Of a DNA stretch of 39,533 bases, positions 3,850 to 10,799 are shown piece by piece (position 1 is the first letter of the stretch; every line of letters starts with the position of its first letter). The position numbers were made by a program, and so were the translations under genes. The notes under the pieces are model-generated. The model made no database searches, had not been told where the DNA came from, and saw only the letters and a program-made list of their open reading frames with translations. This DNA is from Bacteroidota bacterium (GTDB lineage Bacteria; Bacteroidota; Bacteroidia; Bacteroidales; F082): contig JAJRWG010000112.1 in the NCBI GenBank assembly GCA_024276895.1, positions 1 to 39,533 of the forward strand, in the 5' to 3' direction.

Positions 3850-5868
3850 ATGAAAAAAATCCTACTTATTGTTTTGGCCCTCGGGTTTGGTTACGCAACC
3901 ATTGCCCAACAGGCTTATCGCTTCAAGACCGGCATCAAGGAAGTGCAGCGCATTGACGCCCCGGCTATCGGGATAGAACCGGTACAAAGCACAGCAATCG
4001 TTAAAACAAAAACAAATGAAAATTACGTGCTGGCACCGACCGCCGACCGCGACGTGAACATTGTAACCATTGTTGACATCGGCACTTCGGCCAATGCTTA
4101 TGGTTATGGTTACGCAGGCGGCCAGAAATCGCTGGTTTGGGCCGATCCCGACATGAACACCGTAACCAACTTTCACCGCATGGGCGGCGCCCTCGACGTG
4201 GGAGGTTACTCCGGTGACCTGGGATACGACATCTCCACCGATGGAGGTACCACCTGGACAAACATGATTGAGTTGTACGTTGCTACCGATAACGGTGGCG
4301 GACAGTACTACTACGATGCCGCCCGTTATCCCAATCACGGACTGTACAACCCGGAAGGCAGCACCGATCCCAACGACGCTTACGTTGTATTCTTCGCGCC
4401 CAACCTCGACGGCTCGAACTCTGACAGCGATGCCGGCTGGGGCGGATACAGCTACGGCGTGGCCAACATTGGCGACACATCCATCCACACCAAAAACCTG
4501 AAGTCAACCCACGGTGATTACTACCAGTACATTCCCGATGCATTCGACATCACCTCAACGGGTGAAGTATGGGTCGTTGACCAAAATCAGGACTGGACGG
4601 GCGGAGGCCTGGTTTACCTGGAGCAAATGATCATCAATCGCGGAACCTGGAACGGCAGTGATTTTGAGTACGACGAAAGCCTGTTGGACTGCCCTGTTCA
4701 GCCCGACCTGGTACGTCCGGTTAACACAAAAGTAGCCTTCGGCCCCGACGGCATGACCGGTTACATTGTTATTCTGAGCGATGACGGCTCGGCCGAGCAG
4801 CAAAGCGGTTTTGTAAACCTTTACCCCATCTACTGGAAAACCACCGACGGAGGTGAAAACTGGGACGGTCCCAATTTCATCCAGCTTGACGGCGCCGACG
4901 GCCTTGGCGGAATTGTTTACCACCACCTGACCGATGAGCAGATTGCCGAATTGTTTGAGCCTCCGGTACCGGCTCGCGAAGACATTTCCTATACGACTGC
5001 TTTTGATCACGACATTGTGGTTGATGCCTGGGGCAACGTGCATATCGCCGTTGTTATTGCTCCCACGGGCGCAGATCCTTACAGCATCATTACCGCTGAA
5101 GGTTTCACTGCTGCTGTTGATATTTTCACCAAAAACGGCGGTCAAAGCTGGGAAGTTGAAGAAATGGGACGCCCCAGGACTTTCCGTGGCAATTTTGGAG
5201 ACTTAAGCGAAGACAACCGCATCCAGATCACGACCAACCCTGCTGCTGACAAAATCTTCATCTCCTGGCTCGACACCGACCTGGAAGACGAAGTTGACAA
5301 TAACCGTCCCAATATCTGGATACGCGGTTTTGATCCGATTACGTACCTGAAAACGATTGGCTCACCGGTAGAAGACGGCCCGACTAACGTGACTTTGTTC
5401 TCCGAAGGTATGTGGCAGGCTTATTTCTTTATTGCTGCCGCCACTTGTTTCGAGGACAATGGCGTTTACACCATTCCTTTCACTTACGAGGACATGGATC
5501 CCAACGATCCTGCAGCCCAGGTTCAGTTTAAATACATTACAGACTTTACCTTTGACGAGAACGCTGACTTCACCATTCAGGATGTAGGAGACAACTTTGC
5601 CTCAAACAGCATTACAGAGGTTTCGCAGAACTTCCCTAACCCGTTCAGCGGCGAGACTTACGTTACTGTTACACTGAGCGAAGCCAGTAACCTTAACGTG
5701 GATGTGTACACACTGACCGGTCAGAAGGCTTCCAGCAAATCGTACGGTTACCTCACCACAGGTGCCCATACGCTCACTGTTGACGGAAACGATCTGGCTC
5801 CCGGTGTTTATTTCTACACCATCACCGCAGGCGAAAGCACCGTAACACACAAAATGATTGTTGAATAA
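3850..5868 (+). CDS. T9SS-exported protein with Asp-box (BNR/sialidase-like) repeats
   Basis: Signal peptide; Asp-box-like motifs STDGGTTWTNM, TTDGGENWDGP, TKNGGQSWEVE; C-terminal type A sorting tail QNFPNPFSGETYVTV...LAPGVYFYTITAGESTVTHKMIVE. Confidence 0.88.
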   Translation: MKKILLIVLALGFGYATIAQQAYRFKTGIKEVQRIDAPAIGIEPVQSTAIVKTKTNENYVLAPTADRDVNIVTIVDIGTSANAYGYGYAGGQKSLVWADPDMNTVTNFHRMGGALDVGGYSGDLGYDISTDGGTTWTNMIELYVATDNGGGQYYYDAARYPNHGLYNPEGSTDPNDAYVVFFAPNLDGSNSDSDAGWGGYSYGVANIGDTSIHTKNLKSTHGDYYQYIPDAFDITSTGEVWVVDQNQDWTGGGLVYLEQMIINRGTWNGSDFEYDESLLDCPVQPDLVRPVNTKVAFGPDGMTGYIVILSDDGSAEQQSGFVNLYPIYWKTTDGGENWDGPNFIQLDGADGLGGIVYHHLTDEQIAELFEPPVPAREDISYTTAFDHDIVVDAWGNVHIAVVIAPTGADPYSIITAEGFTAAVDIFTKNGGQSWEVEEMGRPRTFRGNFGDLSEDNRIQITTNPAADKIFISWLDTDLEDEVDNNRPNIWIRGFDPITYLKTIGSPVEDGPTNVTLFSEGMWQAYFFIAAATCFEDNGVYTIPFTYEDMDPNDPAAQVQFKYITDFTFDENADFTIQDVGDNFASNSITEVSQNFPNPFSGETYVTVTLSEASNLNVDVYTLTGQKASSKSYGYLTTGAHTLTVDGNDLAPGVYFYTITAGESTVTHKMIVE

Positions 5869-5921: not shown

Positions 5922-6021
5922 GTGCCCGTTAGTTTGTATTTTGATGTACCGGTTTATTGCTGTCGGTATTGCGGATTTGCCGGGGGAACTGCCGGATTGG
6001 AATATTTCTGTTTATGCCGGA

Positions 6022-6053
6022 TTTGGTAAAACAAAATTTTTTGCTTATTTTTG
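6022..6053 (+). promoter_or_regulatory. Putative Bacteroidota promoter TTTG-N20-TATTTTTG
   Basis: -33 TTTG at 6022-6025 and -7 TATTTTTG at 6046-6053, about 50 bp before the ATG at 6104. Confidence 0.6.
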
Positions 6054-6103
6054 GAAGCACGTTTTCAGCCTGTTTCGATCAAATATTCATTAAAAAAAGC
6101 GTT

Positions 6104-8104
6104 ATGAAAAAAATTACACTTCTTTTACTGGCAATTGGTATTAGTCTTCTGACTTTTTCACAGTCGTCAGTCCAGTTTAAAATCGACACCCGGGAAAAAA
6201 CAGCGATACACGATCCACTGATCGGGATTGAGCCGTTGAACCACGCCTCTGTACTGAGGGCAAAATCCGAGAAGCAAATGTTTACACCACCTGCCGACAG
6301 GGATGTAAACATCGTTACCATCGTCGACATCGGCACTTCTGCCAACCCGTACGGTTACGGTTACGCCGGAGGCCAGCGCTCGCTGGTTTGGGCCGACCAG
6401 ACCATGAACACGGTGACCAACTTCCACCGCATGGGCGGCGCCCTTGACCCGGGCGGCTACTCGGGTGATTACGGTTACGACATTTCAACCGACGGCGGCA
6501 TCAACTGGGAAAACATGGTTGAGGTGTACATCGCCACCGAAAACGAAGGTGGCACCTATTATAAAGATGCTGCCCGTTATCCAAACCACGCGGTATACAA
6601 CCCGAGCGGAAGCGACAATCCCGATGACGCTTACGTGGTATTCTTCGGCCCCAACCTCTGGGGAGCAAACGATATCTGGGGCGGTTACAGCTTCGGCGTG
6701 GCCAGCATCGGCGATACTTCTTACCACACCAAAAACATCTGGGTTGCTGACGATGAGTATTTTTACGGCGTACCCGACGGTTACGATTTTACCACGCAGG
6801 GAATGTCCATCGTCATTGACGACAACTACGATCTGGTAAACCAGGAATACCAGCAAAACCTCATTGTTACCAAAGGTTTTTGGAACAGCGGCCTGCAGGA
6901 CTTTGAGTATGATAAAGAACTGCTGGATGCAACGGTAGTTGACGATCTTGGATTCACCGTTGACGAGAAGGTGGCCTTTGGCCCTGACGGCATGACCGGT
7001 TACATCACTGTTCTTGCCAACAATGGTGATGCCGAAGAACAAAGCGGTTTCCAGAATCTTTATCCCATTTACTGGAAGACCACCGACGGCGGTGAAAACT
7101 GGGACGGCCCTTTCTTTATCCAGCTGGATGGTGCTGACGGCCTGGGAGGCATTGTTTACCACCACCTGACCGATGAGCAGATCGCCGAATTGTTTGAACC
7201 GCCCGTACCGGCACGTGAGGACATTTCCTACACCACTGCGTTTGACCACGACATTGCCGTTGACGCGTGGAACAACCTGCACATTGCTGTCGTTATAGGA
7301 CCTACCGGAACAAATCCTTTCAGTATTGTTACGGCTGAAGGATACCTTGGTGCGGTGGACATCTTTACGAAAAACGGCGGGGATAGCTGGGAGGTTGAAG
7401 AAATGGGGCGGCCACGGACTTTCCGCGGCACTTTCGGAAATCTGACCGAGGACAACCGCATCCAGATCACCACCAGCCAGGCAGCCGACAAGATTTTCAT
7501 CTCCTGGCTGGACACCGACCTGGAAGACGAGGCCGACAACAATCGCCCCAACATCTGGGTGCGTGGCTTCCATCCGATTACTTACATCAAAACCCTGGGC
7601 TCACCTGTCGAAGACGGCCCGACCAATGTAACCCTGTTTTCCGAAGGCATGTGGCAGGCCTACATGGGTACCGTGGCAAAATACACCCTCGAACAGGACG
7701 ACAAATACATCCTGCCCTACACTTACGAAGACCTGGACCCCAACGACGACCTGCAGCCGGTGCAGTTCAAATACATCACCGACTTTTCGTTTACCGCTGC
7801 CGACTTTACCCTTGAGGGTATCGGCGACCAAACGGAAACCATCACCAATGCCAGTGTTTCGCAGAACTTCCCCAATCCTTTCAAAACAGAAACTTATGTA
7901 AACATTGGCCTGAACAGGTCGAGCGAACTGGTTGTGGAAGTACACACTTTAATCGGCCAGATGGTTTCAAGCAAAGACTATGGCCTGCTTACTTCGGGTC
8001 AGCACACACTGACAATTGATGGCAGCAAACTTTCGCCGGGCGTGTACTTTTTCACCGTTAAGGCCGGTGATAGTAAGATAACGCGCAAAATGATTGTTGA
8101 GTAA
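6104..8104 (+). CDS. T9SS-exported Asp-box (sialidase-like) protein, tandem paralog of the preceding gene
   Basis: Start moved from 5957 to ATG 6104 (MKKITLLLLAIGISLLTFSQ); long near-identical blocks to the 3850-5868 product; C-terminal sorting tail QNFPNPFKTETYVNI...KMIVE. Confidence 0.88.
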   Translation: MKKITLLLLAIGISLLTFSQSSVQFKIDTREKTAIHDPLIGIEPLNHASVLRAKSEKQMFTPPADRDVNIVTIVDIGTSANPYGYGYAGGQRSLVWADQTMNTVTNFHRMGGALDPGGYSGDYGYDISTDGGINWENMVEVYIATENEGGTYYKDAARYPNHAVYNPSGSDNPDDAYVVFFGPNLWGANDIWGGYSFGVASIGDTSYHTKNIWVADDEYFYGVPDGYDFTTQGMSIVIDDNYDLVNQEYQQNLIVTKGFWNSGLQDFEYDKELLDATVVDDLGFTVDEKVAFGPDGMTGYITVLANNGDAEEQSGFQNLYPIYWKTTDGGENWDGPFFIQLDGADGLGGIVYHHLTDEQIAELFEPPVPAREDISYTTAFDHDIAVDAWNNLHIAVVIGPTGTNPFSIVTAEGYLGAVDIFTKNGGDSWEVEEMGRPRTFRGTFGNLTEDNRIQITTSQAADKIFISWLDTDLEDEADNNRPNIWVRGFHPITYIKTLGSPVEDGPTNVTLFSEGMWQAYMGTVAKYTLEQDDKYILPYTYEDLDPNDDLQPVQFKYITDFSFTAADFTLEGIGDQTETITNASVSQNFPNPFKTETYVNIGLNRSSELVVEVHTLIGQMVSSKDYGLLTSGQHTLTIDGSKLSPGVYFFTVKAGDSKITRKMIVE

Positions 8105-8274: not shown

Positions 8275-8535
8275 CTATTTCTTGTCGCCGCCTTCTTTTT
8301 TGCTGCACTCGGATGATTTTTCATTCATCATTTTGGTGCTGCTGCAGCATGATTTTTCCATTTTGTTTTCTTTTTCTTTGCTTTCGCTTGCTTTGGCTTT
8401 CTTCTTGTCTTTATCTTTGTCGTTGTCAACAATACTTGAAAGGTTACTAACCTGGAGCGTTGTTGCCACACTTGTTGTTGCAATGCTTCCGAAGAAAAGG
8501 ATACCCATACTTAATGCAATTGCTTTTTTTCTCAT
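8275..8535 (-). CDS. Small secreted Lys/Ser/Cys-rich protein of unknown function
   Basis: 86-aa ORF: signal peptide (MRKKAIALSMGILFFGSIATTSVA), charged DKDKDKKK segment, SCCSSTK...SSECSKK; own terminator and putative promoter. Confidence 0.78.
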   Translation of the reverse strand: MRKKAIALSMGILFFGSIATTSVATTLQVSNLSSIVDNDKDKDKKKAKASESKEKENKMEKSCCSSTKMMNEKSSECSKKEGGDKK

Positions 8536-8607: not shown

Positions 8608-8676
8608 TGTTAAGCTGCTGTTAAAAACTGTTAACAAAATGTTAAATTACAGCTGTGGCAGTTAAGCAACAGTTAA
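8608..8676. promoter_or_regulatory. Phased array of (T/A)GTTAA motifs, candidate OmpR-family response-regulator binding region
   Basis: tgttaa/agttaa starts at 8608, 8619, 8629, 8640, 8660, 8671 (spacings 11, 10, 11, 20, 11) within the divergent intergenic region. Confidence 0.65.
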
Positions 8677-8681
8677 TTTTG
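8674..8681 (+). promoter_or_regulatory. Putative -7 element TAATTTTG for the histidine kinase gene
   Basis: Matches TAnnTTTG, 17 bp upstream of ATG 8699. Confidence 0.5.
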
Positions 8682-8698
8682 ATTTGATTCCGCAACGA

Positions 8699-9988
8699 AT
8701 GAAGAAAAAAGCCATTGTTTTCGTTATTGTTCTCACTTCCGTTTCACTGGTCGGCATTGTTTTTACCCAGTTGTTTTGGGTGAAAAAGTCACTGGACCTG
8801 AAGTCGGAACAATTTGACAACAGTGTGCGCATTGCCATAAAAAGTGTACTGAATCAATTTATGGACATGAAGAACGACAGCGTATTTCAGCAAAAGCTAC
8901 TCCTGATCTCCTGTCGCAAACCCAAACTGGATGTAACGGATGTTATACCACCGCGTTTGCTGGACTCCCTGCTCACGGAAGAGTTTATTTGCATGGGATT
9001 GGGCGGGAGCTATTATTATGGTTTGTACGACAGGTCCATTGGCAGGTTTGTGGCAGGCAGATATCCCGATAATGAACAACAACTCCTGGAGTCACCCTAC
9101 CAGTTTTCGGTGGCCAGTCTGTTCCGTCCGGGCGATTACTACCTGAGCATCTTCTTTTCGGGTAAGTCGGGCTTAGTGCTACGACAAATGGAAGGCTGGT
9201 TGTTGCTTTCGGTTTTTTTCCTGATCATTTTAATCATCAGTTTTATTTGGGTAGCTTACACCATCTTCAGGCAAAAAAGGCTGTCCGAAATGAAGACCGA
9301 CTTCATCAATAACCTGACCCACGAGTTTAAAACACCCATTGCCACCTCATCACTGGCGGCAGAAATGCTGTTGCGCCCGGAAATCAGTGACGAAAAAGAC
9401 AAAGTAAAAAAATATGCCGGCGTTATCCTTGATGAAAATCTGCGACTTCAAAACCACGTGGAACAAGTCCTTCAGGTAGCTTTGCTCGAAAAAGGACAGC
9501 AGCAATACAAATTCCGCCGGGCCAATATTCACCAACTGGTAAGTTCGGCCATCGACAGCTTCAGCCTGATCATCAAAGAAAAAAATGTGGACATCAGCAT
9601 CAGTCTGGATGCGGACCGGTACATTGCTGTTGCCGACCGCGCCCATATTCTGAACGTTTTTCACAATTTAATTGACAATGCCATCAAATATTCACACGGC
9701 AGACCCGTTATACAGATCAGTACATGGAATACAAAAAACCACATCGTCATACGTGTAAGTGACAAGGGAATTGGCATCAGTCCCCAGCACCAGAAAGATA
9801 TTTTCAAGAACCTGTTCAGGGTTCCGATGGGCAACATTCACGATGCGAGGGGTTTCGGACTCGGCCTGTACTATGTAAAAACAGTGGTCAACCACCACAA
9901 CGGACGCATTGAAGTAAAAAGCGAATTGGGAAAGGGATCAAGTTTCGATATTTACCTGCCTTTTAACGAAGAGAAACTCAAGGTGTAA
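8699..9988 (+). CDS. Sensor histidine kinase (two TM helices flanking a periplasmic domain)
   Basis: H-box FINNLTHEFKTPIATSSLAAEM, N-box NVFHNLIDNAIKYS, G-boxes VSDKGIGIS and GFGLGLYYVK; ATG 8699 preferred over the TTG at 8684. Confidence 0.93.
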   Translation: MKKKAIVFVIVLTSVSLVGIVFTQLFWVKKSLDLKSEQFDNSVRIAIKSVLNQFMDMKNDSVFQQKLLLISCRKPKLDVTDVIPPRLLDSLLTEEFICMGLGGSYYYGLYDRSIGRFVAGRYPDNEQQLLESPYQFSVASLFRPGDYYLSIFFSGKSGLVLRQMEGWLLLSVFFLIILIISFIWVAYTIFRQKRLSEMKTDFINNLTHEFKTPIATSSLAAEMLLRPEISDEKDKVKKYAGVILDENLRLQNHVEQVLQVALLEKGQQQYKFRRANIHQLVSSAIDSFSLIIKEKNVDISISLDADRYIAVADRAHILNVFHNLIDNAIKYSHGRPVIQISTWNTKNHIVIRVSDKGIGISPQHQKDIFKNLFRVPMGNIHDARGFGLGLYYVKTVVNHHNGRIEVKSELGKGSSFDIYLPFNEEKLKV

Positions 9989-10067: not shown

Positions 10068-10799
10068 ATGAAAACGGAGAGCGAAAAAGTAAGGATACTG
10101 TTTGTTGAAGACGACCCGAACCTGAGCATGGTTCTGCAAGACTATCTTGAAATGATCGGTTACTCCATACGCCATGCTAAAAACGGGGTTGAGGGTTTCA
10201 ATTATTTTATGGCCGAACCTTTCGACCTGCTCATCCTCGATGTGATGCTGCCGAAAAAAGACGGTTTTTCTCTGGCCGCCGATGTCAGGGCAAGCAACCA
10301 ATCCGTACCCATCATATTTTTAACCGCCAAAAGCCTGAAAGAAGACCGCATCAAAGGTTTTCAGCAGGGCTGCGACGATTACATTACCAAGCCCTTTAGC
10401 ACTGAGGAATTGAGCTTGCGCATCAAGGCCATTCTGAAACGTTGTGCCGTTCCCGGAAATCAATACCGCACGGGCACCCCCGAGTTGTTTGTCCTTGGTA
10501 AATACGAATTTGACAGTGGCAACATGATGTTGCGTTGCAAAGGTGTTGAAGACAAACGGTTGACCCGCAAGGAGGCAGACCTGCTCAAACTGCTTTGCAT
10601 TAACAAGAATAACATTCTGCCCCGCGAGGTTGCCCTTGAAACCATTTGGGGAGAGAATAACTATTTTATAGGCAGGAGCATGGATGTTTTCATTGCCAAG
10701 TTACGAAAATACCTGAAAGCAGACCCCAATGTCCGGATCATCAATGTGCACGGCATCGGTTTCAAACTGGAGATCAGGGGCGAACTGGTTCAACGCTGA
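10068..10799 (+). CDS. OmpR/PhoB-family response regulator
   Basis: Receiver (ILFVEDDPNLSMVL...DLLILDVMLPKKDG...IFLTAK) plus winged-helix output (LTRKEADLLKLLCINKNNILPREVALETIWG...IINVHGIGFKLEI). Confidence 0.95.
   Translation: MKTESEKVRILFVEDDPNLSMVLQDYLEMIGYSIRHAKNGVEGFNYFMAEPFDLLILDVMLPKKDGFSLAADVRASNQSVPIIFLTAKSLKEDRIKGFQQGCDDYITKPFSTEELSLRIKAILKRCAVPGNQYRTGTPELFVLGKYEFDSGNMMLRCKGVEDKRLTRKEADLLKLLCINKNNILPREVALETIWGENNYFIGRSMDVFIAKLRKYLKADPNVRIINVHGIGFKLEIRGELVQR

Follow-up and report, generated by a model that had tools for sequence, protein, structure and literature searches.

A conserved array of four phased GTTAA half-sites as the probable operator of an RprXY-like two-component system and a divergent exported protein in Bacteroidota

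In the window, that is, the whole 39,533-nucleotide stretch of Bacteroidota DNA that was analysed, four GTTAA half-sites (8609, 8620, 8630, and 8641, plus strand) follow each other at steps of 11, 10, and 11 bp between the genes of a two-component system and a divergent gene encoding a small exported protein. Judged from the sequence, this array (8609–8645) is quite probably the operator of the adjacent two-component system, at which two cooperating regulator dimers would activate both their own operon and the gene of the Cys-rich exported protein. According to the proposed mechanism, the response regulator encoded at 10068 would, once phosphorylated, fill the four head-to-tail half-sites in the form of two tandem dimers that cooperate and lie on the same side of the double helix. 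RNA polymerase would be contacted from there at both divergent promoters, each of which has a -7 box and no -33 box. Activation of both promoters would result in autoregulation and in induction of the exported protein, whose probable role is to deal with the envelope stress sensed by the kinase or to signal it back. Such an operator would provide a concrete model of the DNA site bound in a widespread group of two-component systems of the Bacteroidota that has received little study, and would link these systems to a conserved exported protein without known function.

The intergenic region, 163 bp between the minus-strand ORF at 8275–8535 and the kinase ATG at 8699, contains six copies of GTTAA, at 8609, 8620, 8630, 8641, 8661, and 8672, with steps of 11, 10, 11, 20, and 11 bp. 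All six are where the earlier note had placed them, its (T/A)GTTAA word beginning one base before each GTTAA (8608 instead of 8609, and so on), and their helical phasing is borne out as well. Among the first four, alternate half-sites are two turns apart, with 21 bp between copies 1 and 3 and 21 bp between copies 2 and 4. The fifth copy (8661–8665, plus strand) is confined to the source species and is missing from both other genomes of the genus (L056 and L057). The sixth (8672–8676, plus strand) overlaps the -7 box TAATTTTG (8674–8681) and is not a conserved half-site. It follows that the conserved unit corresponds to the four half-sites of 8609–8645; a six-site array as the conserved unit is ruled out. 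The cooperative multi-dimer array suggested earlier thus stands as far as there is room for several regulator copies, but the conserved element has four half-sites instead of six, and would offer docking sites for two response-regulator dimers.

Conservation was assessed in 56 orthologous kinase loci from the same family, the window included, which cover 40–100% kinase identity and were selected without use of the array. Upstream of the kinase, and in the same orientation, 53 of these loci carry exactly GTTAA-N6-GTTAA-N5-GTTAA-N6-GTTAA (20/20 core bases), and two others carry 19 of the 20 core bases. When the best of 125 spacings was freely chosen for each locus, 11-10-11 was obtained in 55/56 loci, one of them tied. 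The outcome that the earlier note had named as fatal to its reading, a spacing lost in relatives that retain the gene order, was therefore not seen. Conserved direct half-sites 10–11 bp apart in a target promoter, as expected of an operator of the OmpR/PhoB family, are what these 55 loci display. The core columns hold 2 bits of information each, compared with mostly less than 0.4 bits in the flanks. Some columns outside the selection are essentially fixed too, namely a T before copy 1 and a CT before copy 3.

The genes on either side of the array are as follows. The sensor histidine kinase (8699–9988, plus strand) is RprX-like, harbors HisKA and HATPase_c domains, and is encoded directly upstream of the regulator. 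Its most likely start is the ATG at 8699, where the starts of the orthologues align, within an ORF that opens at a TTG at 8684. The RprY-like response regulator, the proposed binder of the array (10068–10799, plus strand; recognition helix RSMDVFIAKLRKYL), consists of a PF00072 receiver (Response_reg) and a PF00486 winged helix (Trans_reg_C), both above cut-off, in agreement with its earlier assignment to the OmpR/PhoB type. Its best NCBIfam model is RprY (NF051850, equivalog), with a score of 277 bits that lies below the curated cut-off of 370. The product of the divergent gene (8275–8535, minus strand) is 86 aa long, carries a signal peptide, is rich in Lys, Asp, and Glu, and has a charged tail that contains a CC motif; no Pfam family was found for it. 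A divergent small exported ORF with a CC motif is present in 49 of the 51 orthologous loci read. Two cysteines (SC...CM) in the periplasmic domain of the kinase are kept in most orthologues, and the divergent exported protein is itself Cys-rich; a thiol or metal signal is possible. The AlphaFold model of the kinase sensor domain has a mean pLDDT of 56. The small exported gene is preceded by the genes of two neighbouring large proteins (3850–5868 and 5957–8104), both with type IX secretion C-terminal sorting domains.

The array is bracketed by the two Bacteroidota -7 boxes pointed out in the earlier note: TACTTTTG on the minus strand (8586–8579), 22 bp from the array edge, belongs to the exported-protein promoter, and TAATTTTG on the plus strand (8674–8681), 28 bp from the other edge, to the kinase-regulator promoter. 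On the exported-gene side, 52 of 53 orthologues have TAnnTTTG at a distance of 21–23 bp from the edge of the array (exactly 22 bp in 47), and on the kinase side 46 of 53 have it at 26–28 bp. These distances, conserved on both sides, speak for the control of both directions that had been proposed. The -33 TTTG was found in 0/52 divergent (exported-gene) promoters and in 4/46 kinase promoters. If the -7 box starts near -12, the array edges would come to lie at about -34 and -39, positions from which an activator can substitute for the -33 contact. The bound regulator is therefore rather unlikely to repress one or both promoters: on either side the conserved array would be situated at about -34 or further upstream, in the zone of activator-polymerase contact, and both promoters are devoid of a conserved -33 box, even though copies 5 and 6 sit in the spacer and the -7 region of the kinase promoter, and repression of chaperone genes has been proposed for RprY from Porphyromonas gingivalis (PMC3646045). 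Under activation, the preferred reading, the fixed array-to-minus-7 distance may help to predict activator-dependent promoters in a phylum whose regulation is poorly mapped.

Several loci show which of the two genes the array accompanies. In five loci of one genus (L105–L109), the kinase promoter is about 40–50 bp further off and the exported-gene distance is still 22 bp, and in another locus (L104) the array and the exported gene are together located about 200 bp from the kinase. In two genomes (L317 and L318), the exported gene is located on a contig other than that of the kinase and is accompanied there by an exact array, with a -7 box 22 bp away, and the kinase locus of one of them (L102) has neither array nor small gene beside it. 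Where the exported gene and the kinase are separated, the array thus remains beside the former. Since the kinase of at least one genome is without an upstream array, autoregulation is not universal; feedback on the kinase operon would be a common trait that can be lost.

The array also co-occurs with the two-component system. Exact arrays are present in 55/56 sampled family genomes with the kinase and in 0/24 without it (Fisher, 1.5e-19); imperfect arrays in the kinase-less genomes were rejected as chance matches that are devoid of -7 boxes and partly coding. In unbiased pattern searches, 48 of 295 genomes from the order and 35 of 395 from the class matched; the reversed control matched in 3 and 7, respectively. 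Of the loci from these searches, 58 were inspected: a related kinase is encoded directly downstream on the same strand at 39/45 of the 11-10-11 matches, but at 2/13 of those with other spacings (p = 3e-6). When two of the spacings were allowed to vary class-wide (25 combinations), 25 of 39 matches are exactly 11-10-11. This co-occurrence, together with the existence of paralogous systems that have arrays of their own, strongly implies the adjacent 10068 regulator as by far the best candidate binder. Recognition of the array by some other regulator, such as the paralogous RprY-like protein of contig C239 or another OmpR-family protein, with the neighbouring system as just one target among others, is unlikely. 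The recognition helix of this paralogue (RSMDVYITKLRKYL) is indeed nearly identical and it has its own GTTAA array, but that array is spaced 10-10-10 in 14/14 loci (two tied), and several of the 24 family genomes that lack both the window-type kinase and an exact 11-10-11 array nevertheless keep the paralogue.

The array is also unique in the source genome. Neither the rest of the window nor the rest of the 3.06-Mb genome contains a phased match of even three copies, and when three mismatches were allowed the sole extra match in a promoter context was upstream of the paralogous kinase on contig C239. Dinucleotide shuffling of the 163-bp intergenic region gave three phased copies in 5/20,000 shuffles and four in 0/20,000, which, with an exact word and spacing kept over a large divergence when the flanks are not, leaves a negligible probability for chance or for a general AT-rich structural element (UP element or bent DNA), AT-rich and helically phased as the repeats are. 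The half-array GTTAA-N6-GTTAA has 26 matches in the same genome, compared with 14 for the reversed control; no further targets were established from these matches, and no regulon is claimed.

Paralogous systems use the same word at other spacings. A second RprY-like system, found in the source genome (contig C239, 2207–2241; L111 and L346) and in 13 relatives, has a GTTAA array with 10-10-10 steps in the same promoter frame; on C239 the -7 geometry is the same as well. The C239 regulator is the closer RprY homologue, with 326.5 bits against 277 for the window regulator. No small exported gene was seen beside the C239 system. A third paralogous system in the family (L319–L332) has a 10-10-11 array of GGTTAA words; its divergent exported protein has 124–204 aa where read. 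In a related class-level system (L159), the divergent protein has a type IX secretion sorting domain at its C-terminus. Freely chosen spacing separates the three systems, with 11-10-11 in 55/56 loci, 10-10-10 in 14/14 (the two ties included), and 10-10-11 in 10/10. In the regulator tree, the second and third systems form groups supported at 100/100, and the window type falls together with short-kinase relatives from the order. The recognition helices are nearly alike across systems, mostly RSMDV[FY]I[ATV][KR]LRK.

A tentative and somewhat doubtful reading of these differences is a spacing code, in which paralogous RprY-like regulators would share the GTTAA word, in divergent promoters that are otherwise built identically, and the distances between half-sites would keep the systems separate. 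The nucleotide that precedes the word differs too, being mostly T in the window type and G in the third system, so that spacing may not be the sole determinant. The 11-10-11 step was also seen in long-kinase systems outside the family, but these were located with that very pattern and thus provide no test of the code. In order-level 10-10-10 matches (L343–L358), the divergent -7 box is in many cases 12 bp, not 22 bp, from the matched array; this is one repeat closer, and another register of the same architecture. How cross-talk is avoided between paralogous regulators whose recognition helices are almost alike can be studied on these systems as a natural experiment. In addition, 29 of 30 degP promoters of the family (L280–L309; L298 on contig C15 of the source genome) carry GTTAA-N5-GTTAA, a step of exactly 10 bp, on the strand that does not encode degP. 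This is the spacing of the second system, and it suggests that the degP pairs are an RprY-like envelope-stress target; it fits an envelope-stress role of the paralogue, and only indirectly one of the window system. In three class-level loci (L168–L170), array-like GTTAA repeats are located between dapF and a gene for a DegP/HtrA-like protease, with -7 boxes at 25 and 27–28 bp.

Operators of this kind are known; no description of the precise layout of this one, of its conservation, or of the paralogues' differing spacings seems to exist among the papers covered by a still incomplete search. PhoB and OmpR boxes are head-to-tail half-sites at 10–11 bp that are bound by tandem dimers. The window array shares this head-to-tail arrangement at 10–11 bp, and differs by its strict alternating 11-10-11 step, its four half-sites, and its fixed distance to two divergent -7 boxes. 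The window system also resembles the RprXY systems of Bacteroides and Porphyromonas, RprY being the best-matching regulator family and the kinase and regulator genes being adjacent. In P. gingivalis, RprY was shown to bind its own promoter in vitro and was proposed to repress chaperones (PMC3646045); no RprY DNA motif is given in PMC3646045 or PMC6032018, and other literature text searches returned no relevant match. The window regulator, however, falls short of the equivalog cut-off (277 against 370 bits), which makes the P. gingivalis result analogous only; a homologue closer to RprY is encoded at another place in the source genome.

Another likeness is to CpxP/CpxAR, an envelope-stress system of Enterobacteriaceae whose gene layout includes a divergent exported accessory protein. 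In the window, likewise, the divergent exported protein (8275–8535, minus strand), which is conserved in the orthologous loci, shares the regulated intergenic region, and the boxes for the OmpR-family regulator are tandem direct repeats. CpxR boxes are themselves tandem direct repeats of the form GTAAA-N4-8-GTAAA (PMC5063474), whereas the half-site of the window is GTTAA in all four core copies, so that the array does not match a CpxR box. Moreover, the Cys-rich exported protein has no Pfam match to the CpxP (LTXXQ) family even at E 0.1, and the window array is made of four half-sites at fixed spacing between Bacteroidota -7 promoters. By these comparisons, the window system has a CpxP/CpxAR-like layout, yet is not Cpx by sequence.
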